64,000 nucleotides of DNA, taken from the NCBI GenBank assembly GCA_030765065.1, contig CM060990.1, forward strand, positions 413,735,198 to 413,799,197, read 5' to 3'. Position 1 is the stretch's first letter, and every line of letters begins with the position of its first letter. This DNA is from Deroplatys truncata (Eukaryota; Arthropoda; Insecta; Mantodea; Mantidae). The notes beneath the pieces were generated by a model. That model was not told the origin of the DNA and made no database searches. It saw only the letters and a list, made by a program, of their open reading frames with translations. Both the position numbers and the translations under genes were made by a program. Positions 7,081-59,268 of the stretch are shown here, one piece after another.

Positions 7081-7100
7081 GAATAAAAGGGATAAACTGT

Positions 7101-15178: not shown

Positions 15179-15587
15179 TGATGATGATGATGATGATATG
15201 CGGCTTAAGGGCGCTAAACTGCTGAGGTCATCAGCGCCCTTACAAGGTATAAAATATAAAGTCAAACAATGAAAGACAGGTAAAAAACCGCATAATTAAA
15301 AAACGGGACACTAACCCGCGATGTCAAAAAAGTTAAAAATAACAATAGAATAACAATCACAATAACAATAACAATAAAAACAATAACAATAATAACAATA
15401 ACAACAATAGTAACAATAACAATAAATATGTCTCAAAAACCAACACACTACAAGCATAGCCAATAAAAGATTAAAACGTGTCAAGGACTGTAGAATGCGA
15501 GGGACATGAGCGCCATATGTCACTGGGGAGTAAGTCCCTATTAAAACATACAGAATAAAATAACAAAGCTAAAAGACGCTCAGCGCA
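15179..15587 (-). other. 3' UTR and tail of copy 4 (unit 1)
   Basis: Contains the tail, the hairpin at 15207-15241 and a TAACAA-type tract at about 15337-15426. Nothing else recognised. Confidence 0.87.
15207..15241 (-). promoter_or_regulatory. Conserved 3' hairpin (copy 4)
   Basis: Perfect 9-bp stem AAGGGCGCT / AGCGCCCTT with a 17-nt loop, identical in layout to copy 1. Confidence 0.7.
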
Positions 15588-19203: not shown

Positions 19204-19225
19204 TAAGAATAAGGGGATAAACTGT

Positions 19226-21151: not shown

Positions 21152-21163
21152 TAGCGAACCGGA
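21152..21163. repeat. Target-site duplication of copy 4, right side
   Basis: TAGCGAACCGGA, identical to 15167-15178. Confidence 0.93.
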
Positions 21164-21309
21164 GTGTACCCTCGGAGATCGAAAGGGTCGTGAGGGCGAA
21201 GCTTGGTCTTCTGCAAACACACGACCATAGGTGAATGGGAATGCAATAAAAGTTGAAGTTCCGCCCTATGTGATCGTACACCACGTAAATTCCGGGTCAG
21301 GATAGCCAT
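21164..21309 (-). pseudogene. ORF2 start, endonuclease N-terminus (copy 3, unit 1)
   Basis: Begins MAILTRNLRGVRSHRAE. The catalytic Glu of LQETKL is Lys here (LQKTKL) and the Trp before the metal-binding Asn is Arg, so the endonuclease was inactive. The reading continues at 15166 once copy 4 is removed. Confidence 0.85.
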
Positions 21310-21346
21310 GAATAAAAGGGATAAACTATCTACTTAGACGGGCGGC

Positions 21347-30906: not shown

Positions 30907-31543
30907 AGCGAAAAAAATCCTCCACCATTGCAACCGTCTCCGACCTCGGGCTCTGACTTCTCGGGCGTTACCCCGGCTTGGGTGAGTGGCCTATCTATAC
31001 CAGACTCACCCGAGGGTCACACCTCCCAGAACATAGACAGAGGGACCCAATCGCCGTCAGAAGTCAGCAGCTCATGCAATGGCCCCCCCCCGCGGGACTG
31101 CAGTTGAACAGCGGATACGAACACAAACCCTACATGACGACCCGGGAGTTGGGGATGACGCCATTACCCACTCACCCAGCTGCGCACGCGGTGCGCGGGT
31201 ATCCGTTAGGCTGTGTCCACGGAGGATTTAAATAAAAAGATAAAAGGAACTAAAACTGTGTGGGCGTTTCGCATGCAAGGTAGGCCGGCGGGGAAGAAAA
31301 GGGAGATATGCGAATGTCGTGGTGCGAAATGGCCGGAAAGTGATAAGGAAAGAAAGAAACGATGGTGAGGTGCGGTATGGATGGAATGAAAAGAACGCAC
31401 GAGAGCCTACCTTGGGTCCACCGGTCACTTGAAGAACCCACCTCGACCGGATGGGGGTGAGGGAATGAATATGGCGATGATTGGCTCGGGAACCCCCGGG
31501 TGCGCCAAAAACCCGTACTCACATAAGGTGAGCCCCTGAGGGG
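30907..31543 (-). promoter_or_regulatory. 5' UTR (copy 4, unit 2)
   Basis: Duplicate of 20516-21151, with nine C at 31083-31091 instead of eight. Confidence 0.6.
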
Positions 31544-36110: not shown

Positions 36111-38777
36111 ATCCCCCTGAGGGCGACCACTCATTGCGCCAAAGCGAGAGGATGCGTCGACGTAAAATAACACGGGAATCTGACGAGGGAACAACAGAGT
36201 TAAAAATGTGGGTAATAAAATCGCCGAGTTGCAGCGGCGTCGGCAGACTAGTTCCCTGAGATGCCAACATGACCTGGAAGCCACATGAAGGAGACGCGGA
36301 TGCCAGAGGCACCAAGCGAGTGGACCAGGTTATGTATGCGCTGTACGAGGGGGTGGTAATTGTACAGCGCGCAAATACTTTGAAGAGCACTCAGGGAGTC
36401 TGAGCAAATAAAACAGTGCCGTAAGTCGTAACGCTGAACGTATAAAAGTGACTGATATATACTAAAACGTTCGGCGTCAAAATCGAACATTGCCCGGGTA
36501 AACGAAATGTATAACTACTCCAATATCAGTCTTGGACGCATCAATATAAATAAAATGAAAGTCTCCGAACTGGGCCAGAAGTGCTAAAAAGCCGATCTAA
36601 GAACTAAAGAAGGGGTCGCATGCTTCGATATTGACGTCAACCCAAGGTGACAGTGGGCCTCAGCGCGCAACCATGGAGGAAAGCGCGTTTCCCCCTGGGA
36701 AGGGCCGGCGCTGGCGTAAAGTCAAAATACCGAAGGAGTTTCGAAATCGAACTCCTGGAGGGAGCAAGGCAGAGAAGCTAATTAAATATTGGCGATCCAG
36801 CGAACCTTCGTAAAATACCTCGAAAGACGGGTGGTCAGGCAAGGTGGAGAGTCGACAGGCATAGCTGCACAAAAGCATCTCACGCCTTTAGGACAGTGGA
36901 GGCTCTGCAGCTTCAGCATATAGACTGTGAACAGGGCTGGTTGGAAAGACCACCGTAGCGACTCATATGCCACGATGGTGAATGGCATTCAATCGACGTA
37001 ATACAGATGTACGCGCCGAAGAATAGACAATGCACACGTTATCAAGATTGGATCGGACCAAAGAGCGATAAAGATGTAGAAGGACGGTCCGATCAGCTCC
37101 CGAGGATGTGCCACTTAAAACACGTAAAAGATTACGAGAACGGTCACACTTCCCTTTTAGAAACGAAAGGTGCAAATTCCAGCTCAGCTTCCTATCAAAG
37201 ATCAACCCTAAGATTTTCGCCTCGTCTGCAAATCGAAGTATCCCTGGCCCAAGATTTAGAAAAGGTGGAGGGAAAGCCTTCCGTCGCCTGAAATTGATAC
37301 AGACGGATTTTTCGGCGGAGAAATTAAATCCGTTGGCGTTACTCCAGGCGTAGAGACTGTCGATACAGCTCTGGAGACGGCTTCGAGTAGACAGGTTCGC
37401 CGTGTACCACAATAGATGGCAAAATCGTCAACAAAAAAGACGATAAAATGCCAGGTGGAATACAATCAACATTGGGGTTGATAGCAATTGCAAAACGTGT
37501 GACACTGAGTACAGAGCCCTGCGGTACTCCGTTCTCTTGAGCAAAAATACTGGATAAAACCGAGCACACGCGTACACGAAAGACGCGGTCCGTCATAAAC
37601 TCCCGAAGAAATACGGGAAGGCGACCGTGGAGATTCCATACGTGCAGTGTACGTAAAATGCCGTCCCTCGAACAAGCGCCATAAGCTTTCTCCAGGTCAA
37701 AAACACAGCCACGGTTTGACACTTTCTCAGAAATCCATTCATAATATGCGTCGATAGAGACACCAGATGGTCGACGGTAGATCGATGGCGACGAAAGCCG
37801 CACTGAGCGTCCGCTAGCAGTTTCTGAGACTCAAGCCACCATGTCAACCACCCGTTCATCATGCGCTCCATCACCTTGCACAGGCTACTGGTGAGGGAAA
37901 TAGGGCGGTAGCTGGAAGGTTGTTGGCGATCCTGCCCAGGATTAAGTATAGGGACAATGGTGGCTTCGCTGTAAACGGAAGGAAAAAAGCCGTCTTGCCA
38001 AATACGGTATTGGACCTGTAAGAGAAGGAGTTTACTCTCGGTTGAAAGGTTCTTTAACATCAGGACATGAATTCCGTCCGGCCCTGGAGCGGAGTGCCTA
38101 GAGCAATGAAGCGCGTGCTCCAGCTCCCTCATTGTGAAAGGTTCATTATAACACACATTATTAGCAGACCGTAAATTAAAGCTGTCGGAATCCAGCCGGT
38201 CTTTGATACAGCGAAAGCTGGTGGAATAATGGTCTGAACTGGAAACCGCCTCAAAGGCAGCACCCAGAGTGTTAGCGATGAAAGCCGTATCTACTATGAT
38301 GGCATTGCGATCCTGAAGGCCAGAAGCAGTACAATGCGACACTTTATCAGAGAAGCGACGAAGATTATCCCAAACAACAGATGAAGGCGTAAAGCGATTA
38401 AAAGATTCTGCAAAACGAGTCCACGACGCCTTCTTGCTATCCTGAAGAATGCGACGAGCCCAGGTGCGCGATTTTTTAAAAGTAACCAAATTATCAAGTG
38501 TAGGGTATCGCAGAAATATCCTAAGAGCAGTTCTACGGGTACGAACGGCAACCCGACACTCCTCGTTCCGCTAAGGAACAGAAATCCGTCGAGGGTGTGA
38601 GGATGAACGGTGAATTGTGCGTTCGACGGCAGATAGAATCGTAGACGGAACGTGCTGCACCATTTGGTTAACGTCAGCGAAGGGCTGGTCCGCAAAAGAC
38701 ACGAGGCTGGAATACAATCTCCATTCGGCTTTTGTGAATATCCAGGCAGGTACACTGGAGTGTTGGACGTGGTGAGA
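36111..38777 (-). mobile_element. Non-LTR copy 6, ORF2 segment
   Basis: This is the oldest host element in the window. RNase H at the left edge is cut by copy 5. RT follows, and the segment ends in the endonuclease at 38777, where copy 7 is inserted. It continues at 46452. Confidence 0.87.
36111..38777 (-). pseudogene. ORF2 RNase H, RT and part of endonuclease (copy 6)
   Basis: At least six frames follow each other: RNase H 36248-36490, thumb 36660-36878, RT C-terminal 36963-37412 (GLIFDRKLSWNLH), RT core 37339-37803 (GVPQGSVLS), RT start 37593-38489 (SAPGPDG), then endonuclease end. A block of about 50 bp is missing near 36515, removing the RNase H residues after TDGS. Heavily decayed, as expected for the outermost copy. 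Confidence 0.83.
38764..38777. repeat. Target-site duplication of copy 7, left side
   Basis: TGGACGTGGTGAGA, matching 46452-46465 exactly. The pair lies 7.7 kb apart and encloses copy 7 with copy 8 inside it. Confidence 0.93.
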
Positions 38778-39040
38778 GAGAGAGCAATGAGGCGTAAGGG
38801 CGCACAACAGCCCAGGTTTAAGCGCCCTCACTAAGTTAAAAACGTCAACAGTTAAAATAAAAGCACGATAAAAGAGATTCTAAACGTTTCAGTTAAAACA
38901 TTGAAGTACAAGAGTAAAAACGAACAGCGCCACTTGCGGTAGAACATCATTTGAAAGTCCTAGAGCGTCAAAAGAGGAATAAAAATGGGTAAAACACGAG
39001 CGGCAGAAATCCCTGAGTCAGATAAGTCTCATAGGACAAT
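38778..39040 (-). other. 3' UTR of copy 7
   Basis: Short 3' UTR without a TAACAA tract. It has a hairpin at 38797-38828 and a tail next to the target duplication. Confidence 0.8.
38797..38828 (-). promoter_or_regulatory. 3' hairpin of the divergent family (copy 7)
   Basis: A 7-bp stem AGGGCGC / GCGCCCT closes an 18-nt loop. The stem is that of the main family; the loop differs but keeps a CCT..GC.GTT pattern (sense). Conservation across two families supports a function in RT recognition. Confidence 0.68.
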
Positions 39041-42000
39041 CTATATCCGGGCTGTAAAACCCCTCTGAGAGATAAAGTATAAAAGACGTTCCACAACATT
39101 AAAATCATCAGCAAGCAGAGCAGAAAGACAGTTCGGCAGAGACAGACGCCGGCGTAAAGTAGCTAAAAAGTGACACTGGAGTAAAACGTGACGGACCGTC
39201 AAAGGTACTCCACAGTGCACGCAAACTGGTGCGGGTTCACCACTTAATAAATTACTATGGCTAAAACGTCAATGTCCAATGCGCAGTCTGGTTAAAATAA
39301 CTTCCTCGCGACGAGAGCGGCGCGTAGAGGTAACCCAGTGGATAGGGATGGGCTTAACATCTCGGAGTTTGTTCATCTGGAGCAAGGACCATTCCGCTCC
39401 CCAACGCAAATAAATGTCGCGGCGTAAAAACAATAGCAAATCGCGCAAAGGAACAGAGGAGCTAAAACGCGTGGTAGATAAAATAGCAGCCTTAGCAGCA
39501 GTATCAGCGGACTCGTTCCCTGGCAGGCCGACATGACCAGGAACCCACACAAACGATACGTGTGTGCCGACACGTCCGAGAGTGTAAAGGCAATCCTGAA
39601 TACGCTGCACAATAGGATGGAAGGTGTACAACGGCTGGAGGCTCTGAAGGGCGCTCAGGGAATCCGAACAAATAAAACACCGCCGTATACCATGTCGCCG
39701 TACATAAAAAAGAGCCTGGAGTATACCAAAAAGCTCGGCTGTAAAAATAGAACACTGCCGTGAGAGTCGAAATTTAAAACTACGGGGACCCACAACAAAA
39801 GCACATCCTACAACCCGATCGTCCTTCGATCCATCAGTATAAATAAAAACCCCATCCCCCAGTGACTCTTGGAGCGATAAAAAGGCAGATCGAAAAATGA
39901 AGCCGGGGGTTATGGACTTAGGCACAGACGCTAGCCCCTGATAAAAAGAGGATTCTGGGCACAGCCACGGGGGAAAACTGCTTCCTCCCCGGGAAACTAC
40001 ACAAGGAAGTTCGACGTTTAATCCCCGGAGCAACCGCCGAAAACGCACTCCTGGGGGAAGAAGTGCCAGGGAGCGAGACTCATATAGACGATCCAGGGAA
40101 TCATTAAAAAATGGTCCATGTGTTGGGTGTTCCGGCATGCTGGAAAGGTGGCAAGCATAACTGCAAAGAAGATCGTCACGCCTATAAGACAGCGGAGGTT
40201 CGGCAGCTTCAGCACAAAGACTCACTACAGGGCTGGTGTGAAAGGCACCTGTGGATAGCCGAATACCAAGGTGGTGAGTGGCGTTTAGGCGACGTAAGAT
40301 GGAGGGTCGCGCAGAACCATACACAATACACCCGTAGTCCATTTTGGAGCGGATCAACAGCCGATAAAGACGTAAAAGAACGGTCCGATCAGCTCCCCAG
40401 GATGTGCCGCTTAAAACCCGTAAAAGAGAAAGAGAACGATGACACCGAGCTTTCAAGTATGCTATGTGGGAGGACCAACAGAATTTTTGGTCAAAGAGTA
40501 AACCCAGGAATTTCACTTGGTCTGCGAAAGGCAGAACTTCTGGACCGAGCCGGAGGATAGTCTGGGGAAACTCTATTCGGCGCCAGAAATTGACACACAC
40601 GGTCTTTTCGACAGAAAACCGGAACCCGTGTGTAATGCTCCAGGAGTACAGACTGACAAGGCAACGCTGGAGTAGTCGTTCCATGAGGATGGTCCGCCGA
40701 GAGGTAAGGTAAATAGCAAAATCATCAACAAAAAGCGACGCTGAAATTCCTGGTGGAACACAGTCTACAATAGAGTTAATAGCTGCAGCAAACAGTGTGA
40801 CGCTGAGCACAGGGCCCTGAGGTACACCGTTCTCCTGAGTAAAAAGCTGGGATAAAACCGAACCCACACGTACACGAAATACCCGGTCCTTCATAAACTC
40901 CCGAACGAAGGTAGGGAGACGACCACGAAAACCCCATCGATGCAGAATAGCAAGAACGCCCGTCCTCCAGCAGGTATCGTAAGCTTTCTCTAAGTCGAAA
41001 AATACGGCTACAGTATGACACCGATTCACAAATCCATTCATTATAGCTGTTGAAAGGTTTACTAGATGGTCTACAGTGGAGCGGTACCGGCGGAAACCGC
41101 ACTGCACGTTCGTTAAAAGTTCCCGAGATTCCATCCACCAAGTTAACCGCCCGTTGATCATGCGTTCCATAACGTTGCAAACGCAACTGGTTAGGGAAAT
41201 CGGGCGGTAACTGGAAGGTAGTTGACGGTCCTTCCCAGGTTTCAATATCGGAATAACGGTGGCTTCACGCCAAACTGAGGGAAACGTACCATCCTGCCAG
41301 ATACGGTTATACAGCTGGAGGAGAAAGCGCTTACCATCCGTAGACAGACGCTGGAGCAGTAACACGTGTACGCCATCGGGCCCAGGGGCAGAAGGCCGAG
41401 AGGTAGTTAGGGCATGTTCCAGCTCACGCAACGAAAACGGACGGTTATAATCCTCGCTGTTGCCCGAACGAAAAGAGATATCTTGAGCTTCCATCGCAAC
41501 CTTATGGGCAAGAAATCCAGAATGGTAATTGGTAGAACTGGATGAGGCTGCAAAAGTCGTGCCCACGGTGTCTGCTATAAGGGTAGGATCAACTAGGATG
41601 TTAGTACCCATTCTAAGACCGGGTATGGTAGTGAAGTTGGATTTACCAGCTACACGCTTAAGTTTGTCCCAAATAACGGACGTGGGAGCAAATCTATTAA
41701 AGCTTGCCACATAGCGGGACCAAGAGGCCTGTTTACTACTGCGAATAGTCCTTCGAGCCCTTGCACGCAGTTGTTTATAAATTATCAAGTTCTCCGTAGT
41801 AGGATGCCGCCTAAAGATTCTCAGCGCACCTCTTCTTTCCCGAATTGCTGTCCGACAATCTTCGTTCCACCAAGGAACCGGTAGACGTTTGGGGTGGGAA
41901 GACGAATGAGGAATGGAGCGTTCAGCGGCGGCCATTACTACTGAAGTCAGGTACGCTATCAGGTGGTCAATAGTTGGAAATTTGCAGCTAGAGAAGCAGG

Positions 42001-42725
42001 ACGTGAATAAAGTTCCCAGTCTGCCTTATTGAATTGGAACTTAGAAACACCAGTGGAAGATACAGTGGCAGTTAGTAAAGTGATGATGCACGGAAAATGA
42101 TCGCTAGAATGTGAATCGGAAATAATGTTCCATACCAAACGACAAGCAAGCTGTGCAGAACAAAAACTCAAATCCAAATATAAAAGAGTCCCATATGCGT
42201 CAGAGAGGAATGATGGTTCTCCAGTGTTCAGGACGCAAAGATTGAAGTGATGAATGAGGTCAGAAAGAAGGCCTCACCTCGCGCAGGTCCGAGGAGACCC
42301 CCAAAGCGGATGATGAGCATTGAAGTCCCCCAATAGTAAGTAAGGTGACGGTAGTTGCGACACGAGATGAAGGAGATCAGCCAATGCGAGGGGAGAGGAA
42401 GGCGGAACATAAATGTTGCAAATGGAAAAGTGGAAGCCAGAAACAGAAACATGCATAGCAACAGCTTGCAAGGGGGTGTTGAGCGGAAGAGGTTCATAAA
42501 ACACATAATCACGTGTCAAGGTAGAAACTCCACCATGAGCAGGACAACCTATCTCCGGGGCTAGATCGTAGCGCACCACTGAGGAACTGCGCAAAACAAA
42601 TGCGTCTTGAGGACGAAGTTTGGTCTCCTGCAAGCAAACGATAAGTGGTGAATGATGACGTAAGAGAACCTCTAATTCAGCTCGTGCCCGCACACCACGT
42701 ATATTCCACTGGAGGAGAGCTATTA
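39041..42725 (-). pseudogene. ORF2 of the divergent family (copy 7)
   Basis: 39269-41935 is an 888-codon open frame with RT (SAPGPDG, FFDLEKAYDT, GVPQGPVLS, FVDDFAIYL) and RNase H (YTDGSKDDRVVGCAF, FTAELFGI, CSDSLSALQ, WVPGHVGLPGNESADT). It stops at TGA (39269-39271), where related copies have Cys. The same frame then goes on to 39041 with the C-terminal CCHC (CVHCGVPLTVRHVLLQC). Upstream, the endonuclease (LQETKL, GDFNAHH) is at 42274-42693 and 41959-42177, with shifts near 42275 and 41990. The start codon reads ATA at about 42725. FVDD is also found here, so it is a feature of both families. Confidence 0.88.
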
Positions 42726-42777
42726 GATAGACGAAAGAGCAGAAGGGACTAAAAAGGCGTATGCGACAAGAAGATAC

Positions 42778-43944
42778 TTATGAAGTACCTTTGGCTACAC
42801 CGGCGCGGTTTAACTTGACCTTTTTCTTGCGCGCAGGACTACGGCTCGGTCGGGAACGACCGACAACCTGGAAGCTATCCGCGTCACCGTCGCTAGGACC
42901 GGTGTCAGAGCCTGTCGTCCGTGTACGAGAGCGGGAGCGACTCGTGAGACGACGTGTGGGAAATTTGCGGTAGAGGCGTTCAGAAACAGTGCCAGAGGTG
43001 GAAGCTGAAATGGTCTGTATGGAAGAAGTGGCCTGTGGATGTTTAGGCGGAGAAAGGACGGATTCAGAAGCGGTGTCGGTTTGAGTGCCAACAGAAACAC
43101 GTGAATGAGAGACGGGAGAGGTCTGCGTCACGGCATCCTGCTTCCGAACACCCCCGCGTACAGCAGCGGAGTACTTCAGGGAGGTAGTCGGGTGCAGTTC
43201 GTGGTAACGCTTTCGTGCTTCAGGAAACGTTAGACGATCCTTGATCCGTACTTCTTGGATAGCCCTTTCCGCTAGAAACCGTGGGCACTCTTTGGAGTTG
43301 GAAGGATGACCAGCACAACAGTTAACACAAGCGGGGTCCTGAGCACACATCGAACCGTCATGCGTGGCTCTACCACAACGCGGACAAACAGGTGAGCCGG
43401 AACAACGCTGCTGGGTGTGCCCGAACTTCTGGCAACGGAAACAGCGCATTGGATTTGGTATATAAGGTCGGACAGATGCTCTCTCATAACCGCAGAAGAT
43501 ATAGGTAGGTAACTCGGTCCGCTCAAACGTCAGAAACACCGTGCGGAGAGGAAGCGGCTTGTCATCCCTTTTTCCAATGAGTGGATATGACGCAGTAACT
43601 CCTTGATCTGACAGGCAATTCACAATGTCCTCATTGCAAAGGCCGTCCAAACTAGCGGTGGTTACCACACCGCGGCTGCTATTCAGGGTTTTGTGTTTTA
43701 CCACCGTAATGGGGTAAGAGCCCAGTAGAGTGGCGTTCAGTAACTTCGCCGGTTGGTCGTCATGGAACACTTCAATTAAAAGCGTGCCATCCCTACAACG
43801 CGTTGCGTTTTTCACTTTTCCACAGATGCGATCTATTTCCTTTTGTATATAAAACGGACTGACATCCTGCATCGTCTTGCCATCACAATTCAGCCGCATT
43901 ACAAAAAATCGAGGTGTTGAGGAGGTTAAGCGCAGGGAAGCCAT
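42778..43944 (-). CDS. ORF1 gag-like protein of the divergent family (copy 7)
   Basis: 388 codons, uninterrupted, starting at a real ATG (MASLRLTSSTPRFF). The middle aligns with main-family ORF1 (LNSSRGVVTTASLDGL, SVRPYIPNPMRCFRC). Three zinc knuckles: CFRCQKFGHTQQRC, CPRCGRATHDGSMC and CVNCCAGHPSNSKEC. It is followed by EVRIKDRLTFPEARKRY, also shared with the main family, and a Ser/Arg-rich basic C-terminus. It is shorter than the main-family protein (388 against about 429). It is the only open gene of this copy. Confidence 0.9.
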   Translation of the reverse strand: MASLRLTSSTPRFFVMRLNCDGKTMQDVSPFYIQKEIDRICGKVKNATRCRDGTLLIEVFHDDQPAKLLNATLLGSYPITVVKHKTLNSSRGVVTTASLDGLCNEDIVNCLSDQGVTASYPLIGKRDDKPLPLRTVFLTFERTELPTYIFCGYERASVRPYIPNPMRCFRCQKFGHTQQRCSGSPVCPRCGRATHDGSMCAQDPACVNCCAGHPSNSKECPRFLAERAIQEVRIKDRLTFPEARKRYHELHPTTSLKYSAAVRGGVRKQDAVTQTSPVSHSRVSVGTQTDTASESVLSPPKHPQATSSIQTISASTSGTVSERLYRKFPTRRLTSRSRSRTRTTGSDTGPSDGDADSFQVVGRSRPSRSPARKKKVKLNRAGVAKGTS

Positions 43945-44407
43945 AATGGAAATAGCCCCCTTCCGGAACCGTCGGCGTCAGCCTGCATCCGGGGGTTAAA
44001 AAGAAAGGACACCCAAATCTTCCGGTCTGTGCCGGCCTGGAACACCCGTTTCAGGCCCGATCTCTAAGAATACCTCAGAGGAGTTACCCTCCGACTCTCA
44101 CTACGTACCGGTATGCAACAGTTTCACCACAGGCAGGCCCGAATTTATGCCCCTACCACTGGAATAACCGCCAGTGGCCCCCCACTTTAGGCCACGCTGC
44201 CTCAACAGAGAAACCGCGGATTCAGGGGACTTGTGGTTGATTACGTCGGGCGCCAGACAGCGGTAACACGTCGAGTCCCCCCGGTCAACCCAGCCACGCG
44301 CGGCCACCGAACCGTTCGAGGGGACCCGGCCCCTATGGGGCTACGTGGGTGTACATGACAGTGGATCGGCTCCGCACCTAGTGTCGCATGAAAGGGGTAG
44401 TGAGGAG
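43945..44407 (-). promoter_or_regulatory. 5' UTR of copy 7, part next to ORF1
   Basis: About 460 bp of G/C-rich sequence unlike the main-family 5' UTR. It is cut by copy 8 (target duplication 44396-44407) and goes on at 46154-46354. I see no gene. Confidence 0.6.
44396..44407. repeat. Target-site duplication of copy 8, left side
   Basis: GGTAGTGAGGAG, matching 46142-46153. Confidence 0.92.
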
Positions 44408-44824
44408 TGATGATGATGATGATATGCGGTTTAAGGGCGCTAAACTGCTACGGTCATCAGCGCCCTTACAATGTATAAAAGATAAGGTCAAAATATAAAA
44501 CAGGTAAAAGAACCGCATAGTTAAAAACGGTACACAAACCCGCGATGTTCAAAAAGCTAAAACTAACAATAATAGAACAATAACAATAAAACAATAATAA
44601 CAATAACAACATTAATAACAACAATAATAACAATAACAATAACAACAATAACAACAATACAAAGTTCTGAAAAACCAACACACTAAAAGCATATGCAATA
44701 AAAGATTAAAACGTGTCAGGAAGTGTAGAATGCGAGGGACATGAGCGCCATATGTCCACTGGGGATAAGAGTGCCCATAAAAACAGACAGAATAAAAGTA
44801 CTAAGCTAACAGACGCCCAACGCA
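44408..44824 (-). other. 3' UTR and tail of copy 8
   Basis: Tail, hairpin at 44433-44467 and TAACAA-type tract at about 44563-44659. Confidence 0.87.
44433..44467 (-). promoter_or_regulatory. Conserved 3' hairpin (copy 8)
   Basis: Perfect 9-bp stem AAGGGCGCT / AGCGCCCTT with a 17-nt loop; one loop base differs from copy 1. Confidence 0.7.
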
Positions 44825-46141
44825 TTAAATGCGCAGATTAAAATCACTGTCATGAATAAAACGTAAAACACATTCTACAGCACGCGAGTCGTCTGCCAAA
44901 ACGTTGGCTAGGCCAACAGGCAGACCCACACGAGTACGCAATGCAGCTAAAACCTGACACTCCGTTAAAATGTGACGCACCGTTAAGGGCACGTCACACT
45001 GCCCACAGAGTGGTGCGGAGTCACCACTGAGCAAATACCTATGACTAAAAACACAATGTCCAATCCGTAAACGAGCTAAAATTACCTCTTCCCGACGACA
45101 AGAACGAGAAGAGGTACCCCAGAGCAACGGGAAAGGCTTATCCTCCCGCAACTTGTTCCCCCGGAGGGCCGTCCACTCATCGCGCCAGCGCGAGAGGATG
45201 CGGCGACGTACAATAACACACGAATCTGACGAGGGAACAACAAAAGTAAAAAATTTGGGTAATAAAATCGCCGATTTCGCAGCGGCGTCGGCAGACTCGT
45301 TACCTGAGATGCCCACATGACCTGGAATCCACATGAAGGACACGCTGATGCCAGAGACACCAAGCGAGTGGAGCAGGTCATGTATGCGTTATACGAGTGG
45401 GTGGTAATCGTACAGCGCATGAATAGTCTGAAGGGCACTCAGAGAGTCCGTACAAATAAAACAGTGCCGTAAGTCGTGCCGCTGAATGTATAAAACAGAT
45501 TGATAAATGCTAAAACGTTCGGCGGTAAAAATTGAACATTGTCGAGGTAAACGAAAAGTAAAACTCTGTACACCAAAAACAAAGGCACATCCTACTCCAA
45601 CATCAGTCTTAGACCCATCAGTATATATAAAATGACAGTCCCCGAACTGCGCCTGTAGTTCTAAAAAGGCGGATCTAAGAACAGAAGCAGGGGTCGCAGT
45701 TTTCGGCATCGACGCTAGCCCAAGGTGGATGTGGGCCTCATCGCGCGACCATGGAGGAAAGCGCGTTTCCCCTCGGGTAAGGGCCGGCGCTGGCGTAACG
45801 TCCAAATGCCGAAGTAGCAGTCGAAAGCGAACCCCTGGAGGGAGCAATGCAGAGGAGCTAACGAAATATTGGCGATCAAGCGAATCCTCGTAAAATACAT
45901 CGAAGGACGGGTGGTTAGGCAAGCTTGAGACCCGACAAGCATAGCTGCACAAAAGCATCTCACGCCGGAAGGACAGCGGAGGCTCTGCAGCTTCTGCGTA
46001 CAGACTGGGTACAGGGCTAGTTGGAAAGGCCCCTGTAGCGACTCTTATGCCACGATGGTGAATGGCATTCAATCGACGTAACACAGATGGACGTGCCGAC
46101 GAATAAACAATACACCCGTAATCAAGCTTGGATCGGACCAA
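44825..46141 (-). pseudogene. ORF2 fragment: RT thumb, RNase H, CCHC (copy 8)
   Basis: A single frame runs from the truncation point to the ORF2 stop, with one internal stop near 45386-45388 (TAA where others have CAG for Gln). RNase H motifs are all present: YTDGSKTDVGVGCAF, FTAERFSIYQ, CTDSLSALQ and WIPGHVGISGNESADA. The T-run region is in frame here (GCAFVFGVQSFTF), which shows that the frameshift in copies 1, 10 and 11 is not universal. Confidence 0.9.
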
Positions 46142-46153
46142 GGTAGTGAGGAG
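46142..46153. repeat. Target-site duplication of copy 8, right side
   Basis: GGTAGTGAGGAG, identical to 44396-44407. Confidence 0.92.
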
Positions 46154-46451
46154 GGTGCACTCGACCTTCACGCCTGAGACCTCCGGAGAGCACACAAGTT
46201 GGAAACTGCGCTGAAACCGTGGGACAGCAACCACGGAAATAGAAAAGATCCCTGTTGGTGAGACAGGAGTAAATAAACCTAAGAAGCTTAAACCTAGTTT
46301 AAGGAATAATTGTAGAAGAGGAAGAGTAAAGTAAAGGAACGTAACGGGGCTAGTCCAGATGGGGGTGAGGGGATGAATATGGCGATGATTGGCTCGGGAA
46401 CCCCCGGGTGCGCCAAAAACCCGTACTCACATAAGGTGAGCCCCTGAGGGG
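46142..46451 (-). mobile_element. Copy 7 5' end, with main-family terminus
   Basis: 46154-46354 is the remaining unique 5' UTR of copy 7. 46355-46451 is nearly identical to the outermost 97 bp of main-family copies such as copy 4 (21055-21151), ending in CCCCTCAGGGG. The right-hand target duplication of copy 7 follows at once, so the hybrid 5' end was inserted as one piece. Confidence 0.88.
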
Positions 46452-46465
46452 TGGACGTGGTGAGA
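46452..46465. repeat. Target-site duplication of copy 7, right side
   Basis: TGGACGTGGTGAGA, identical to 38764-38777. Confidence 0.93.
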
Positions 46466-47105
46466 CAGAAGAGAAACGATGCAAGGGTAATTGTCACTGG
46501 AGTAGGTGTCAGCAACGACGTGCCACTGCAGACGCCTAGCAAGCTGGAGTGAGCAAACGGCAAGGTCTAGGTGTGAGAATGTACCAGTAGAATCAGAAAT
46601 AAAAGTAGGTTCACCTGTATTGAGGATGAAGAGATTGAACAGGTAAAAAATATCCGAAAGAAGAGTACCTCTCGCACAAGCCCTTGGCGAACCCCACAGT
46701 GGGTGATGGGCATTAAAATCTGCCAACAGAAGAAATGGTGTTGGGAAAGCGGACAAGAGATCACGAATGTCTGCATTTGCGAGGGGGACGATAGAGGAGA
46801 ATATGCAGAGCATACAAAAAAGAAAACACCGGGTAAGTGAAGTCTAATGGTAACAGCCTGCAAGTCGGACGTAAGAGTGAGAGTTTAAAAATGGACGTCG
46901 TTACGCACTAATAACATGACACCTCCATGAGAAGGAGTACCCTCCTCCGGTTAAAGATCGAAGCGAACCGAAGTATACCCTCGGAGATTAAAAGGATCTT
47001 AACGGCGTAGCTTAGTCTCCTGCAAACACACGACCATTGGTGAATGGGAACGCAATAAAAGCCTATGCGATCGTACACCACGTAAATTCCAGGTCAGGTT
47101 AACCA
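46466..47105 (-). pseudogene. ORF2 endonuclease part (copy 6)
   Basis: 46452-46813 reads endonuclease with the metal-binding Asn kept but its Gly changed (ADFNAHH for GDFNAHH). The N-terminal part up to 47105 has shifts and a small deletion near 47062, where AGTTGCAGTTCCGCC of other copies is missing. Dead. Confidence 0.8.
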
Positions 47106-47149
47106 TGAATAAAAGGGATAAACTGTCTACTTAGAAGGGCGGCTGAAAA

Positions 47150-48403
47150 TTAATTTCTGCTTAACCTTTGAGCACGGGCTATTAGTATGCAGTTGCTCAG
47201 ACTCCATAGGCTCCTCAAAGGGAGGGCCCACGTGCTCAGTACCAGAAACCAATTCAAGCGCCGTGAATCGGTTCTGGATGGCAATGGGCGAAGGGTGCTG
47301 CTGAGCGCGGCTTGTCCCAGGAACATCCTGGGACTGCGACTTTCGAGGAGGAGGAGAAGGTTAACTTTTGTTTCCGCGCGCACGCGGAGGGTCTTTCAGA
47401 AAGCTTTCCCTGCGAAGTTTCTGCTTGGGCTTCTTTTCCGTGGCTTGGGATTTCAGAACCTTAGGACCAGCTTTGGATGACTTGGTAAGCGTGCTATAGA
47501 CGGATGGCCGGATGGTAGTGACGGTAAAGCCATTCATGGACCAGGCCTGTATTTCGGCATCTACTCGTGGTACTGGCGAGACAACAACAGAACTAAATAT
47601 ACCAGATCGCAGGAGCGAAGGTTGGCGCGCATGGTAACACCTCCGGGCTTCAGCGAAGGAGAGTTTTCCTTTACCCGGATCTCCTAGATCGCCTTCTCGT
47701 CCAAGTACCGCGGAGAGTCTGCAAATGACGCTTAATGAGACCTTTGCAATTGACACAGACGGGGGCTGTTGAACAGGTACCTTCGTGTGAGGGCTGGATC
47801 CATGTTGCACAGATGGTAACGGCACTCTTACATGAGACTTGCGTATGCCCAAAACGTTGGCATTTAAAACAACGCAGAGTTCTAGGAATATAAGGCCTCA
47901 CCGCAATCCGTTCTTACCCTGCGGAAATGCTCGTGGGCAGATCGACGCCATCAAATGTTAGAAACAGGGTACGAGTGGGTACCAATACACCTTCGCGTTT
48001 GGCTTGCACTCGATGAACCGCTGTCACCTTCTGGTCTTCCAGGTATTCTACCAGGTCCTCGTCCGATATGCCATCGAGGCTATGTGTGGTGACAACGCCT
48101 CGACAAGAATTTAAGGTGCGGTGCTTCTCAACACGGATAGGATAACCGTGGAGAAGCGTGGCGCGGAACAAAGCCTTACTCTGCTGCTCAGATTTGGTTT
48201 GAACCAACAGGGAACCAATCCAAAGACGAGTGCGGTACTGAACCGCACCTGAAATAGCGTCAATGCCGTTCTGGATAATAAAAGGGTTCACCTTCTCAAA
48301 CGTTTGACCTTCCTCAGTTCGCGAAATCACTAAGTAACTACCAGTTGTGCTACTTCTGTTGCAATCGTTTTCGGCGTTTGTTATATATAATGGAGAAAGT
48401 GTG
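47150..48403 (-). pseudogene. ORF1 in several frames (copy 6)
   Basis: 47914-48330 is the N-terminal part and 47671-47901 holds knuckles 1 and 2 (CFKCQRFGHTQVSC; CATWIQPSHEGTC, with Trp for the second Cys). 47361-47852 and 47150-47383 carry the basic C-terminus. The usual ATG has become CTG at 48401-48403. At least four breaks. Confidence 0.83.
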
Positions 48404-48655
48404 CTCCAGAGCGAAATAAATCCTCCACCATTGCAACCGTCTCCGACCGCGGGCTCTGACTTTCCGGGCGTTACCCCGGCTTGGGTGAGTGGGCTATCTA
48501 TACCTATCTCACCCCAGGGTCACCCCTTCCAAAACATAGACAAGGGGACCCAATCGCCATCAGAAGTCAGCAGCTCATGCAATGGCCCTCCCGTGGGACT
48601 GCAGTTGAACAGCAGATACGAACACAAACCCTACATGACGACCCCGGGTGGTGGG
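48404..48655 (-). promoter_or_regulatory. 5' UTR remnant (copy 6)
   Basis: The ORF1-proximal 250 bp of a main-family 5' UTR, cut where other copies read GGTGGTGGGGATGACGCC. No gene. Confidence 0.55.
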
Positions 48656-52396: not shown

Positions 52397-52944
52397 TTAA
52401 ATGCGCAGATTAAAATCACTGTCATGAATAAAACGTAAAACACATTCTACAGCACGCGTGTCGTCTGCCAAAACGTTGGCTAGGCCAACAGGCAGACCCA
52501 CACGAGCACGCAATGCAGCTAAAACCTCACACCCTGTTAAAATGTGACGCACCGTTAAGGGCGCATCACACTGCCCACAGAGTGGTGCGAAGTCACCACT
52601 GAGCAAATACCTATGACTAAAAACACAATGTCCAATCCGTAAACGAGCTAAAATTACTTCTTCCCGACGACACGAACGAGAAGAGGTACCCCAGACCAAC
52701 GGAAAAGGCTTAACCTCCCGCAACTTGTTCCCCCGGAGGGTCGTCCACTCATCCCGCCAGCGCGAGAGGATGCGGCGACGTAAAATAGCAAACGAATCTG
52801 ACGGGGGAACAACGGAGGTAAAACATCTGGGTAATAAAATCGCCGATTTGGCAGTGGCGTCGGCAGGCTCATTACCTTAGATGACCACATGACCTGGGAT
52901 CCACATGAAGGAGATGCTGGTGCCAGAGACACCAAGCGAGTGGA
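52397..52944 (-). pseudogene. ORF2 C-terminal part: RNase H end and CCHC (copy 10)
   Basis: 52397-52723 is open for the end of ORF2, with the C-terminal motif CGQCDAPLTVRHILTGC. Upstream to 52944 is the RNase H His/Asp region, with a stop and a shift. The N-terminal side continues at 59258. Confidence 0.83.
52934..52944. repeat. Target-site duplication of copy 11, left side
   Basis: AAGCGAGTGGA, matching 59258-59268; the site lies in RNase H of copy 10. Confidence 0.92.
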
Positions 52945-53205
52945 TGATGATGATGATGATGATATGCGGCTTAAGGGCGCTAAACTGCTGAGGTCATCAG
53001 CGCCCTTACAAGGTATAAAATATAAAGTCAAAAAATAAAAGACAGGTAAAAAACCGCATAGTTAAGAACGGGACACAAACCCGCGATGATCAAAAAGCTA
53101 AAACTAACAATATAACAATAACAAATATATCAATAACAATAATAACAATAACAACAATAACAATAAAAACAACAATAACAATAGCAACAATACAAAGATC
53201 TGAAA
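52945..53205 (-). other. Extra 3' terminal fragment of copy 11
   Basis: A 261-bp 3' end with tail, hairpin (52973-53007) and TAACAA tract (about 53105-53191). It stops at GATCTGAAA, where the full 3' UTR goes on with AACAACACAC (53469 onward), and is joined there to the tail of the full-length element. Confidence 0.9.
52973..53007 (-). promoter_or_regulatory. Conserved 3' hairpin, outer (copy 11)
   Basis: Perfect 9-bp stem with a 17-nt loop; belongs to the extra 3' fragment. Confidence 0.7.
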
Positions 53206-53620
53206 TGATGATGATGATATGCGGCTTAAGGGCGCTAAACTGCTGAGGTCATCAGCGCCCTTACAAGGTATAAAATATAAAGTCAAAAAATAAAAGATAG
53301 GTAAAAAACCGCATAATTAAAAAACGGGACACAAACCCGCGATGTCAAAAAGCTAAAACTAACAATATAACAATAAGAAATATAACAATAACAATAATAA
53401 CAATAACAACAATAACAATAAAAACAATAATAACAATAACAGCAATAATCACAAGACAAAGATCTGAAAAACAACACACTAAAAGCATAGGCAGTAATGG
53501 ATTAAAACGTGTCAGGAACTGTAGAATGCGAGGGACATGAGCGCCATATGTCCACTGGGGATAAGAGTTCCCATAAAAACCGACAGGATAAAAGTACGAA
53601 GCTAACAGACGCTCAACGCA
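53206..53620 (-). other. 3' UTR and tail of copy 11 proper
   Basis: Tail, hairpin at 53228-53262 and TAACAA-type tract at about 53360-53449; otherwise like copy 1. Confidence 0.87.
53228..53262 (-). promoter_or_regulatory. Conserved 3' hairpin, inner (copy 11)
   Basis: Perfect 9-bp stem AAGGGCGCT / AGCGCCCTT with a 17-nt loop, identical to copy 1. Confidence 0.7.
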
Positions 53621-56600
53621 TTAAATGCGCAGATTAAAATCACTGTCATGAATAAAACGTAAAACACATTCCACAGCATGCGTGTCGTCTGCCAAAACGT
53701 TGGCTAGGCCAACAGGCAGACCCACACGAGCACGCAATGCAGCTAAAACCTGACACTCTGTTAAAATGTGACGCACCGTTAAGGGCACGTCACACTGCCC
53801 ACAGAGTGGCGCGGGGTCACCACTCAGCAAATACTTATGACTAAAAATGCAATGTCCGATACGAAGGCGTGTTAAAATTACCTCTTCCCGACGAGAAGCA
53901 CGGGAAGAGGTAGCCCAGACTAACGGGAGAGGCTTAACCTCCCGCAACTTGTTCCCCCGGAGGGCCGTCCACTCATCGCTCCAAAGCGAGAGGATGCGGC
54001 GACGTAAAACAATAAACAAATCTGACGAGGGAACAACAGAGGTAAAACGTCTGGGTGATAAAATCGCCGACTTGGCAGCGACATCGGCAGACTCATTACC
54101 TGAGATGCCCACATGACCTGGAATCCACAAGAAGGAGACGCTGATGCCAGAGACATCAAGCGAGTGGAGCAGGTCATGAATGCGCTGTACGAGCGGGCGG
54201 TAACTGTACAGCAAGCTAATACTTTGAAGAGCACTCAGGGAGTCGGAACAAATAAAACAGTGCCGTAAGTCGTGCCGCTGAATATATAAAAGAGACTGAT
54301 AAATGCTAAAAAGTTCGGCGGTAAAAATCGAACATTGCTCTGGTAAACGAAAGGTAAAGCTATTTCCACCACAAAAAAGGCACATCCTACTCCAGCATCA
54401 GTCTTAGATCCATCAGTAAAGATAAAAGGCAAGTCCCCGAATTGCGACTGAAGTTCTAAAAACGCTGATCTAAAGACTGAAGAAGGGGTCTCATTCTTCG
54501 GCATTGACGATAACCCAAGGTGACAGAGCGCCTCAGCGCGCGACCATGGAGGAAAACGCGTTTCCCCCCTTGGAAGGGCCGGCGCTGGCGTAACGTCCAA
54601 ATGCCGAAGGAGCAGTCGAAATCGAACCCCTGGAGGGAGCAATGCAGAGGAGCTAACTAAATATTGCCGGTCAAGTGAATCCTCGAAAAATGCCGCGAAA
54701 GACGGGTGGTCAGGTAAGCTTGAGAATCGACAGGCATAGCTGCACAAGAGCATCTCACGCCTGGAGGACAGCGGAGGCTCTGCAGCTTCAGCATAAAGAC
54801 TGGGCACGGGGCTAGTTGGAAAGGCCCCTGTAGCGACTCTAAGACCACGATGATGAATGGGATTCAAACGACGTAACACAGATGGACGTGCCGACGAATA
54901 CACAAAACACCCGTAATCAAGTTTGGATCGGACCAAAGAGCGATAAAGGCGAAGAAGGACGGTCCGATCAGCTCCCCAGGATGTGCCACTTAAAACACGT
55001 AAAAGATTAAGAGAACGGTCACACTTTGCTTTTAAAAAGGAAACGTGCGAGGTCCAACACAACTTCCTATCAAAAATCAACCCCAAAAATTTCGCCTCGT
55101 CTGCAAACGGAAGTATCCCTGGCCCAAGACGGAGAGAGGGGGGTGGGAAATACTTCCGGCGCCAGAAGTTGATGCAGACGGATTTCTCGGCGGAGAATTT
55201 AAAGCCGTTGGCGTTACTCCAGGCGTAGAGACGGTCGATACAGCTCTGGAGACGGCGTTCGAGTAGACAGGTCCGTCGTGAACTGCAATAAATAGCGAAA
55301 TCGTCAACAAAAAGGACCATGAAATGCCAGGTGGAATACAATCAACAATGGGGTTGATAGCAATCGCAAAAAGTGTGACACTGAGTACAGAGCCCTGCGG
55401 TACTCCGTTCTCTTGAATAAAACGATGAGATAAAACCGAGCCCACACGTACACGAAAGACGCGGTCCGTCATAAACTCCCGAAGAAATATGGGAAGACGA
55501 CCGCGGATATTCCAATCGTGAAGTGTACGTAAAATGCCGCCCCTCCAACAAGTGTCATAAGCTTTCTCCAGGTCAAAAAATACAGCCACGGTTTGACACT
55601 TTCTCAGAAACCCATTCATAATATGCGTCGACAAGGACACCAGATGGTCGACGGTAGAGCGATAGCGACGAAACCCGCACTGAGCGTTCGCTAGAAGTTT
55701 CTGAGACTCAAGCCACCATGTCAACCGCCCGTTGATCATGCGCTCCATCACCTTTCAAATGCAACTGGTGAGGGAGATAGGGCGGTAGCTGGAAGGTAGT
55801 TGGCGATCCTTCCCAGGTTTAAGTATAGGGACAATGGTGGCTTCGCGCCAAACGGAAGGGAAAATGCCGTCTTGCCAAATACGGTTATAGACCTGTAAGA
55901 GAAGTAGTTTACTGTCGGCTGAAAGGTTCTTTAACATCAGGACATGAATGCCGTCCGGCCCGGGAGCGGAGTGCCGAGAGCAATGAAGAGCGTGCTCCAG
56001 CTCCCTAATTGTGAATAGTTCGTTATAGCATTCAGCATTAGCAGACCGAAAAGTATATGATGCGGAATCCTGCCGGTCTTTAATAGAGCGAAAGCCGGCG
56101 GAATAATGGTCTGAACTGGAAACCGCCTCAAAGGCAGAACCCAGAGTGTTAGCGATGGCAGCCGGATCCACTATGGTGGCATTAGAAACCTGAAGGCCAG
56201 AAACAGTACAATGTGACACTTTACCTGAGAAGCGACGAAGTTTATCCCAAACAACGGATGAAGGCGTAAAACGATTAAAAGACTCGACAAAACGAGCCCA
56301 AGATGCCTTCTTTCTATCCTGAATAATGCGACGAGCCCTGGCGCGCGATTGTTTAAAAGTCACCAAATTATCAAGTGTAGGGTGGCGCCGAAACACCCTA
56401 AGTGCAGTCCTACGGGCACGAACGGCGTCCCGACAATCCTCGTTCCACCACGGAACAGGTGGCCGTCGAGGTTGGGAGGATGAACGGGGTATTGCACGTT
56501 CGGCGGCTGAGAAAATAATAGACGTAAGGTGCTGCACTAGTTGATTAATGTCGGAGAAGGGCTGGTCGTCAAAATGCACGAGGCTGGAATACAAGCTCCA

Positions 56601-57308
56601 GTCGGCTTTTGCGAATATCAAGGTAGGTACTCTGGAATGCTGTACGTGGTGCGACAGAAGAGAAACGATGCAGGGGAAATGGTCGCTGGAGTAGGTGTCA
56701 GCGACGACGTTCCACTGAAGACGACGTGCAAGCTGGATTGAGCATATGGCAAGGTCCAGGTGAGAGAATGTACCGGAAGAATCAGAAATAAAAGTAGGTC
56801 CACCTGTATTGAGGATGGAAAGATTGAACTGATAAAAAATTTCGGAAAGAAGAGTTCCCCTCGCACAAGCCCTTGGCGAACCCCATAGTGGGTGATGGGC
56901 ATTAAAATCTCCCAACAGAAGAAATGGTGTTGGGAGAGCGGACAGGAGAGATCGAATGTCCGCGAGAGCGAGGGGGGACGATGGAGGTGTATACACAGAG
57001 CAAACAGAAAACAAAAAGCCGGGTAAGTGAAGGCGAACGGCAACAGCTTGCAAGTCAGATGTAAGTGTGACAGGTGTAAAATGAACGTCATTACGCACCA
57101 AAATCATGACACCACCATGAGCAGGAGTACCCTCCTCCGGTTCAAGGTCGTAGCGAACCGGAGTATATCCTCGGAGATCAAAAGGATCGTGAGGGCGAAG
57201 CTTAGTCTCCTGCAAACATACGACCATAGGCGAATGGGAACGCAATAAAAGTTGCAGTTCCGCCCTATGCGATCGTACACCACGTACATTCCAGGTCAGG
57301 ATAGCCAT
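53621..57308 (-). pseudogene. ORF2 with one stop and two shifts (copy 11)
   Basis: Start MAILTWNVRG at 57308, 22 nt after ORF1. Endonuclease and RT start are open to 55755, where TGC of copy 1 (Cys in SCICKVMERM) reads TGA. The frame then goes on (55077-55751) to a one-base loss near 55316, just before FVDD. 54235-55341 carries FVDDFAIY, the thumb and the first RNase H Asp. At the T-run (54371-54376) the frame is lost as in copies 1 and 10, and 53621-54385 holds the rest of RNase H (FTAELFSIYQ, CSDSLSALQ, WIPGHVGISGNES) and CCHC. Only three breaks in 3.7 kb, so this is a young copy. Confidence 0.91.
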
Positions 57309-57330
57309 TAAGAATAAGGGGATAAACTGT

Positions 57331-58620
57331 CTATTTAGAAGGGCGGCTTAAAATTACCTTTTGTTTAACCTTTGGGCTCGGGCTTTTTGTATGGAGTTGG
57401 TCAGACTCCATAGCTTCCTCGGAGGGAGGGCCCACGCGCTCAGTGCCAGAAACCGATTCAAGCGCCGTGAATCGGTTCTGGGTGGCGATGGGTGAAGAGT
57501 GCCGCTGAGCGCGGCTTGTCCCAGGACCATCCTGGGACAGCGACCTCCGAGGAGGAGAAGGTGAACCTTTGTTACCGCGCGCACGCGGAGGGTCTTTTAA
57601 AAAATCTTCCCTACGAAGTTTCTGCTTGGGCTTCTTTTCAACGGCTTGCGACTTCATTGACTTGGGACCAGGTTTATACGGCTTGGTAACTGTAGCCTTA
57701 ATAGACGGCCGGATGGTAGTGGCGGTTAATCCAGTCAAGGTCCAGGTCTGAGTTTCGGCATCTACTCGTGGTACTGGCGAGGCAACAACAGAACTAAATG
57801 TGACAGATCGCAGGAGTGAAGGTTGGCGCGCATGGAAACGCCTCCGGGCTTCAGCGAAGGAGAGTTTTTCCTTTACCCGGATCTCCTGGATCGCCTTCTC
57901 GTCCAAATAGCGCGGACAGTCGGCAAACGAAGCAGAATGTGACCCTTTACAATTAACGCAGACGGGGGCTGTTGAACAGGTACCTTCGTGTGAGGGCTGG
58001 CTACATGTTGCACAGATGTTAACGGCACTCTTACAGGAGACTTGCGTATGCCCAAAACGTTGGCATTTAAAACAACGCAGAGGTCTAGGAATATAAGGCC
58101 TCACAGAAATCCGTTCGTACCCTGCGGAAATGCTCGTGGGCAGATCGACGCCATCAAATGTAAGAAACAGGGTACGAGTGGGTACCAATACGCCGTCGCG
58201 TTTGGCCTGCACTCGATGGACCGCTGTCACCTTCTGGTCTGCAAGATATTCTACCAGGTCCTCGTCCGATATACCATCGAGGCTATGGGTGGTAATAACG
58301 CCTCGACAGGAGTTCAATGTGCGGTGCTTCTCCACACGGATGGGATAGCCGTGGAGAAGCGTAGCGCGCAACAAGGTCTTACTTTGCTGATCGGATTTCG
58401 TTTGGGCTAATAAGGAACCATTCCGTAGACGAGTGCAGGACTGAACCGCACCAGCAATTGCATCAATGCCCTTTTGAATGATGACAGGGTTCACCTTCTC
58501 AAAGCTTTGTCCTTCTTCGGTTCGTGAAATGACCAAGTAACAACCAGTTGTCGGTGGTGTCACTTCTGTTACATAAACTTTTCGGCGCTTGTTAGTATTA
58601 ATGGAGGAAGGGTGCTCCAT
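57331..58620 (-). CDS. ORF1 gag-like protein, open (copy 11)
   Basis: 429 codons from MEHPSSINTNKRRKVYV to the stop 22 nt before ORF2. All three knuckles are complete (CFKCQRFGHTQVSC, CATCSQPSHEGTC, CVNCKGSHSASFADC), followed by EIRVKEKLSFAEARRR and the basic C-terminus. Very close to the ORF1 of copy 1. Confidence 0.92.
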   Translation of the reverse strand: MEHPSSINTNKRRKVYVTEVTPPTTGCYLVISRTEEGQSFEKVNPVIIQKGIDAIAGAVQSCTRLRNGSLLAQTKSDQQSKTLLRATLLHGYPIRVEKHRTLNSCRGVITTHSLDGISDEDLVEYLADQKVTAVHRVQAKRDGVLVPTRTLFLTFDGVDLPTSISAGYERISVRPYIPRPLRCFKCQRFGHTQVSCKSAVNICATCSQPSHEGTCSTAPVCVNCKGSHSASFADCPRYLDEKAIQEIRVKEKLSFAEARRRFHARQPSLLRSVTFSSVVASPVPRVDAETQTWTLTGLTATTIRPSIKATVTKPYKPGPKSMKSQAVEKKPKQKLRREDFLKDPPRARGNKGSPSPPRRSLSQDGPGTSRAQRHSSPIATQNRFTALESVSGTERVGPPSEEAMESDQLHTKSPSPKVKQKVILSRPSK

Positions 58621-59257
58621 AGCGAAATAAATCCTCCACCATTGCAACCGTCTCCGACCTCGGGCTCTGACTTCTCGGGCGTTACCCGGGCTTGGGTGAG
58701 TGGCCTATCTATACCAGACTCACCCCAGGGTCACACCTCCCAGAACATAGACAGAGGGACCCAATCGCCGTCAGAAGTCAGCAGCTCATGCAATGGCCCC
58801 CCCGCGGGACTGCAGTTGAACAGCGGATACGAACACAAACCCTACATGACGACCCCGGGTGGTGGGGATGACGCCATTACCCACTCACCCAGCTGCGCAC
58901 GCGGTGCGCGGGTATCCGTCAGGCTGTGTCCACGGAGGATTTAAATAAAAAGATAAAAGAAACTAAAACTGTGTGGGCGTTTCGCACGCAAGGTAGGCCG
59001 GCGGGGAAGAAAAAGAGAGATATGCGAATGTCGTGGTGCGAAATGGCCGGAAAGTGATAAGCGAAGAAAGAAACGATGGTGAGGTGCGGTATGGATGGAA
59101 TGAAAAGAACGCACGAGAGCCTACCTTGGGTCCACCGGTCACGAGAAGAACCCACGTCGACCGGATGGGGGTAAGGGGATGAATGTGGCGATGATTGGCT
59201 CGGGAACCCCCGGGTGCGCCAAAAACCCGTTCTCACATAAGGTGAGCCCCTGAGGGG
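58621..59257 (-). promoter_or_regulatory. 5' UTR (copy 11)
   Basis: Same subfamily as copies 1 and 4, with the GCGCAC-GCG-GTGCGC hairpin and both terminal hairpins. No gene. Confidence 0.6.
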
Positions 59258-59268
59258 AAGCGAGTGGA
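59258..59268. repeat. Target-site duplication of copy 11, right side
   Basis: AAGCGAGTGGA, identical to 52934-52944. Confidence 0.92.

Follow-up and report, generated by a model that had tools for sequence, protein, structure and literature searches.

The change of promoters by LINE families seems to be best studied in mammals. The locus analysed here, a 64-kb stretch of DNA referred to as the window, raises the question of how a LINE of one family (copy 7) came to end in the 5′ terminus of another, the main family of the locus. Judged from its sequence, copy 7 is a recent chimera, and the 97-bp front was most likely joined before or during the insertion of this copy. Chimeric elements are known elsewhere; copy 7 adds a clear example of this type of event, from a locus in which the 5′ ends appear to have been shuffled.

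Organization of the nested locus

Self-comparison and a search with a full-length copy revealed non-LTR retrotransposons nested within one another in the window and sharing one orientation. Using the full-length copy 11 (53204–59257, 6054 bp) as the reference of the main family, 26 segments were matched, the reference itself included, and all 26 lay on the minus strand. We read these segments as 10 nested insertions in a single orientation, four of which have only one junction within the window. Two of the 10 fall in a 5′ UTR: W follows base 298 of copy 7, and T is situated near base 392 of the main-family copy Z. The same orientation of ten nested insertions, with four of them taken from one junction, would arise about once in 1000 under random orientation; such a bias could be caused by a preferred target, by selection, or by a locus that traps insertions in the manner of a piRNA cluster.

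Exact target duplications of 11–14 bp were found at the six insertions having both ends in view, the repeated insertion of copy 4 (also designated Y) at 31543 being excluded from this count. When read in element orientation, five of these duplications (at 771, 2969, 15167, 38764, 44396, and 52934) start with TC and the sixth starts with CTC, and in the main family they adjoin a (TCA)n tail; a nick preference is possible.

The self-comparison, which covered repeats of at least 80 bp, detected none at the two ends of any one copy, that is, no long terminal repeats. Both families are non-LTR retrotransposons (LINEs), with a reverse transcriptase, an APE-type endonuclease, target duplications of variable length, and no LTRs. 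In the Pfam analysis, ORF2 of copy 1 matched endonuclease families and RVT_1, together with RNase_H in a broken piece at 1e-4, which is under the cut-off of Pfam. In copy 7, an RNase H domain follows the reverse transcriptase (RNase_H, 3.5e-9), as is characteristic of the clade that we take to be the I-like, RNase H-bearing LINEs. The PDB sequence search returned LINE-1 and R2 proteins among its matches, as expected of a reverse transcriptase; a search of NCBIfam yielded nothing further.

Layout of copy 7

Copy 7 occupies 38778–44407 and 46154–46451, split by the later insert W, and was inserted in copy Z (36112–38763 and 46452–48655), which resumes on the far side (Table 1). The initial annotation covered 46154–46465; its location of the 97 bp at 46355–46451 holds, but its start, 46154, is the edge of W and no edge of copy 7. 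As that annotation had also described, an exact 14-bp target duplication directly adjoins the 97 bp and encloses the whole hybrid, although a fit of 18 bp with one mismatch is an alternative.

Table 1. Coordinates of the parts of copy 7 and of the related features in the window.
Feature	Coordinates	Strand	Evidence
Target duplication, 3′ side, 14 bp	38764–38777	.	exact repeat of 46452–46465
Copy 7 3′ UTR and end	38778–39043	-	3′ end adjoins duplication
Copy 7 ORF2, C terminus, past a stop	39044–39268	-	tblastn, one stop
Copy 7 ORF2, main open piece with the reverse transcriptase and RNase H domains	39269–42025	-	Pfam RVT_1 1.2e-28, RNase_H 3.5e-9; 67% aa identity to main ORF2 (copy 1), 730 positions
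Copy 7 ORF2, endonuclease part, internal stop, frame shift at low edge	42026–42725	-	tblastn frames with copy 1, open frames
Copy 7 ORF1, 399-aa open frame	42778–43977	-	aa identity 49% at 266 positions compared with main ORF1
Copy 7 5′ UTR, remainder up to ORF1 frame	43978–44407	-	joins 46154 once insert W is removed; 12-bp duplication flanks W
Insert W, later 5′-truncated main-family copy in copy 7 5′ UTR	44408–46141	-	88.7% to reference positions 6053–4322; 12-bp duplication 44396–44407 / 46142–46153
Copy 7 own 5′ UTR, first stretch past junction	46154–46354	-	main 5′ UTR similarity no better than shuffles
Copy 7 5′ terminus, 97 bp, main-family A type	46355–46451	-	identity to A-type 5′ ends; starts where main 5′ ends start
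Target duplication, 5′ side, 14 bp	46452–46465	.	exact repeat of 38764–38777
A-type 5′ end, copy 1	8928–9024	-	96.9% to copy 7's 97 bp
A-type 5′ end, copy 4 (Y)	21055–21151	-	97.9% to copy 7's 97 bp, closest; duplicated at 31447–31543
A-type 5′ end, copy 11	59161–59257	-	95.9% to copy 7's 97 bp
Additional 3′ end of copy 11, about 254 bp	52945–53203	-	95.9% identity (244 columns) with the 3′ end proper of copy 11

The earlier claim that copy 7 is a distinct family by both ORFs and most of its 5′ UTR was borne out by the amino acid identities to the main family in ORF2 (67%) and ORF1 (49%) and by a 5′ UTR with no similarity past base 97. The ORF1 product, for which no Pfam family was found, presumably contains CCHC-like knuckles, and for the 3′ UTR the DNA comparison detected no resemblance to the main family. 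Over 730 codons of ORF2, copies 7 and 1 differ with a dS of about 1.9, which is near saturation, and a dN of 0.24. We read these values as those of two old families, in both of which selection has kept the proteins. Only one element of the copy 7 family is present within the window. In the viral and prokaryotic contig collections, where an animal-type element is hardly expected, no second copy 7 relative was found, the viral collection being searched with copy 7 ORF2, main ORF2, and a 5′-end pattern; nine viral stretches came up in the main ORF2 search and 55 stretches in the prokaryote collection, and none was a relative.

The 97-bp front and its junction

The terminal block of copy 7 corresponds, on the minus strand, to bases 97 to 1 of the full-length main element. 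Copies 1, 4, and 11 of the initial annotation were taken as the elements with 5′ ends at 9024, 21151, and 59257, and the near-identity of the block to these three termini, designated A type, was confirmed at 95.9–97.9%. A block as divergent as the ORFs, the outcome that had been set against a hybrid, was not seen: ORF2 of copy 7 and that of the main family have a DNA identity of 67.6%, and 97 bp diverged likewise would give about 66 matches. Against the non-A 5′ ends, the identity was 85.1% for X (12860), 87.2% for e0 (33648), and 84.4% for V (36110) at ungapped sites, and 82.5–84.5% for the same three with gaps counted. The main-family types are only 80.6–86.2% alike in this block, so that the match between the two families cannot be put down to conservation. 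Seven independent 5′ ends share their start point, V being one C short in the opening run, and 66 of the 100 alignment columns are invariant. The duplicated 5′ ends at 23251 and 31543 are not independent and were left out of this alignment and of the 97-bp identities.

Beyond the block, the relationship ceases abruptly. When the 5′ UTR of copy 7 from base 98 was aligned locally with bases 1–640 of the main element, the score of 242 was equalled by 98 of 200 simple shuffles, and copies 7 and 11 share just GG immediately before the 97/98 junction and nothing immediately after it. Chance similarity was set aside in view of a 97-bp match running from the terminus. Left-over target sequence was set aside as well, since the duplication is outside the 97 bp and the host copy resumes beyond it, and so were two separate insertions, the sole duplication found inside copy 7 being the 12 bp of W.

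Six sites vary among copies 1, 4, 7, and 11, and copy 7 has the inferred A-type ancestral state at five of them. Its one change from this ancestor is a CpG C-to-T at base 95, which is also present in e0, while the private changes number one in copy 1, one in copy 4, and two in copy 11, and copies 1 and 11 have one further change in common. Since the front of copy 7 is one change from the A-type ancestor, against one or two private changes in each of the other A-type copies, we take the join to be recent. The number of ORF2 frame breaks detected by tblastn was three in copy 7 and three in copy 11, suggesting that the two are of roughly similar age.

Structure and function of the 97 bp

None of the 23 predicted pairs in the 97-bp block had changes on both sides, and the four sequences chosen for folding did no better than shuffles (z −0.32 to 1.13). 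An HDV-like fold with a perfect first helix was found in none of the five sequences tried; with one first-helix mismatch allowed, a loose setting run without a shuffle control, folds were obtained in three of the five. There was no ribozyme match in Rfam, which gave chance-level matches only, all far under gathering scores: Retro_dr1 (46340–46408, plus strand, E 5.1), CrcZ (44618–44669, E 0.44), and OrzO-P in 46154–46354 (E 8.9). A ribozyme or structured RNA in the 97 bp was set aside given the lack of covarying pairs, the shuffle-like folding, and the lack of a perfect-helix HDV-like fold. A tRNA or snRNA piece in 46154–46354 was likewise set aside, as Rfam yields only OrzO-P there. A DNA promoter would be a more natural guess for the 97 bp than a structured RNA.

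Mosaics and joining events in the locus

Grouping by identity in successive regions indicated that the 5′ parts of the main copies are patchwork. Copies 1, 11, 4, and 7 group in bases 1–97, where X groups with e0; X then groups with copies 1, 11, and 4 in 98–195 and again with e0 in 196–391. In 592–1070, copy 4 groups with X (96.9%), apart from copy 1 (85.4%). Seven mosaic triples, which share sequences and are not independent, were evaluated by permutation: six show an excursion reached by none of 2000 permutations, and in the seventh (copy 1, Y, e0) the excursion was reached in 316 of 2000. These mosaics may owe more to recombination than to switching. The A-type front was found on three bodies, those of copies 1 and 11, of copy 4, and of copy 7. 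X changes from B-type sequence, which runs to base 87, to A-like sequence, which starts at base 92, and the nearness of this edge to the 97/98 junction of copy 7 may be due to chance. Copy 4 itself joins an A-type 5′ UTR to an X-type ORF1 start near reference 542–592 (18600–21151 compared with 6500–9024 and 10330–12860).

Two further events were noted in the locus. Copy 11 has two successive 3′ ends (52934–53460), about 4% different, inside one 11-bp duplication (52934–52944 / 59258–59268). Separate insertions should leave a duplication between the two 3′ ends, and none was seen; therefore, copy 11 can be regarded as a two-template insertion, which likely arose by an end-to-end template jump early in reverse transcription. 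In addition, 10758–33649 contains a tandem duplication with a 10.4-kb period, in which about 11,400–21,800 recurs, with 499–500 matches in every 500 positions compared in its core. Its edges are less alike and lie within X and e0, which are homologous copies; a recent unequal crossing-over between nested elements is therefore indicated. Through this duplication, the 5′ end at 12860 was repeated at 23251. Template jumping, DNA recombination, and co-oriented nesting could each help to make a chimera like copy 7.

Origin of the chimera

What is directly observed in copy 7 is sequence from two sources, a sharp change from one to the other at base 97/98, and one duplication around the whole. A template switch or a captured module had been proposed for this hybrid. 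The distinct family with a main-family 5′ terminus in one duplication was upheld, but these are not the sole options: the data also fit a co-oriented nested insertion followed by read-through, a gene conversion by a neighbouring copy, or a non-homologous recombination of DNA. We prefer template switching by the reverse transcriptase, to which we assign roughly an even chance. The enzyme, while copying an RNA of the copy 7 family, would have switched to an A-type main-family RNA at 97 nt from the 5′ end of this acceptor. The join would have been made at the RNA/cDNA stage, either during the present insertion or earlier, in a recent source element of which copy 7 would be a plain copy; whichever the timing, the age of the join seems to be about that of the A-type copies. 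A foreign 5′ segment in the same orientation and inside a single target duplication, as expected of a template switch, is present: the nearly identical block adjoins an unrelated 5′ UTR and an ORF2 at 67% DNA identity, and the exact 14-bp duplication surrounds the composite. The joining of templates also seems to occur in the same locus, as indicated by copy 11 with its two 3′ ends in one duplication, and the main-family copies X, Y, and e0 are mosaics; however, the mosaics may stem from the DNA recombination evident in the locus, and one of the seven triples is not significant. Precedents are R2 copies whose 5′ end bears U12 snRNA or tRNA (PMC3414825, in its account of in vivo jumps), L1 chimeras (PMC13174262, in its description of such insertions), and the exchange of 5′ UTRs in mouse L1 (PMC3600994), although for the R2/R1 hybrids the authors of PMC3414825, in the part concerned with them, deem a non-homologous event likelier than a template jump. 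Against switching, the landing point is internal to the acceptor RNA and microhomology beyond GG is not evident, whereas the jump in copy 11 is end-to-end, unless the acceptor of copy 7 was a short 5′ fragment; moreover, the copy 7 family is known from one element only.

Given the co-oriented nesting, capture by nesting is a serious rival, which we regard as possible but less probable than template switching. Here, an element of the copy 7 family would have inserted co-oriented 97 bp into an A-type element, and a read-through RNA, consisting of 97 nt of A type and the copy 7 element, would have been retrotransposed and may have founded a lineage, copy 7 being one of its copies. Such a course needs no internal template switch and accords with the single strand of all 26 matching segments, read as 10 co-oriented nested insertions, two of which (W and T) sit in a 5′ UTR; however, no A element interrupted at +97 is present within the window, and the 97 bp, a putative promoter, would have to suffice for transcription. 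The 14 bp before the junction start with TC in copies 1, 4, and 7, like five of the six two-ended duplications, but this fit is weak, as 31% of 620 positions in the 5′ part of copy 11 pass at 11–14 bp and 8.4% pass at 14 bp alone, and copy 11 is without TC at the corresponding place. Gene conversion, in which a neighbouring A-type copy overwrote a native, diverged but homologous 5′ terminus of the copy 7 family, seems improbable to us: the tandem duplication, with its edges in homologous copies, and the mosaic main copies speak for DNA recombination between neighbours, but there is no homology past base 97 to hold a tract, the tract would need to end at the terminus of the element, and the diverged native version was not seen. 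We give still less credence to a non-homologous DNA recombination that fused an A-type 5′ end to a copy 7-family element elsewhere, the fusion then being transcribed and retrotransposed here. This is the type of event favoured in the relevant part of PMC3414825 for R2/R1 hybrids and agrees with a junction without homology beyond GG; nevertheless, no sign of it turned up in this locus, and the discussion of mechanisms in PMC3600994 reports that DNA-level recombination between elements has been discounted for L1 because most copies are dead. Finally, we consider it very improbable that the 97 bp are a vertically inherited, functional terminus of both families, like Pr77 in trypanosomatids. The start shared by seven independent 5′ ends (one C short in V) and the invariant columns would suit such a terminus, but as the main types are only 80.6–86.2% alike in the block, selection does not hold it at 97%, and neither the pair changes, the folding, the Rfam matches, nor the HDV-like search with a perfect helix indicated a retained structure.

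Relation to known systems

Several systems resemble copy 7 in part. In mouse L1 families, 5′ UTRs with their promoters have been recruited, and template switching is one of three mechanisms in the discussion given by PMC3600994. As in that account, a 5′ terminus moves between families, there mostly simultaneously active ones; in contrast, the segment here is only 97 bp, the families are at 49% amino acid identity in ORF1, and one recipient copy is known. The R2/R1 hybrid SIDEs of Drosophila, described in PMC3414825 together with R2 copies having U12 snRNA or tRNA at the 5′ end that represent in vivo template jumps, similarly have one non-LTR 5′ end joined to another element in one duplication (14 bp in the hybrids). 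According to the same description, the SIDEs are short, non-autonomous, and provided with the R2 ribozyme, and a non-homologous event is favoured for them, whereas copy 7 possesses two ORFs, of which ORF2 is now broken, and the searches of its 97 bp yielded no ribozyme. The L1 chimeras with U6 and other RNAs covered in PMC13174262 are comparable in that the extra 5′ sequence entered together with the element; unlike those described there, copy 7 has gained a piece that corresponds exactly to the 5′ end of a different element family. Pr77 of the trypanosomatid L1Tc/ingi elements combines a promoter and an HDV-like ribozyme and is described in the relevant sections of PMC4748587 and PMC4035085 as inherited from a common ancestor. 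It is likewise a short 5′ terminus common to elements of otherwise different make-up, but the 97 bp of copy 7 gave no evidence of a ribozyme, and their sharing has the appearance of a recent, lateral transfer.

The locus context makes a recurrently exchanged front cassette thinkable. That the first 90–100 bp form a self-contained cassette, probably a promoter, passing repeatedly between LINE families is, however, an idea that we hold only tentatively and consider rather unlikely. A locus having one front on several bodies, together with a readable two-template insertion, would allow switching, nested read-through capture, and recombination to be separated via junction counts across one genome. 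Copy 4 is also without about 70 bp of ORF2, and its two matching segments overlap by 15 bp (18699–18713); this gap looks like a repeat-mediated deletion.
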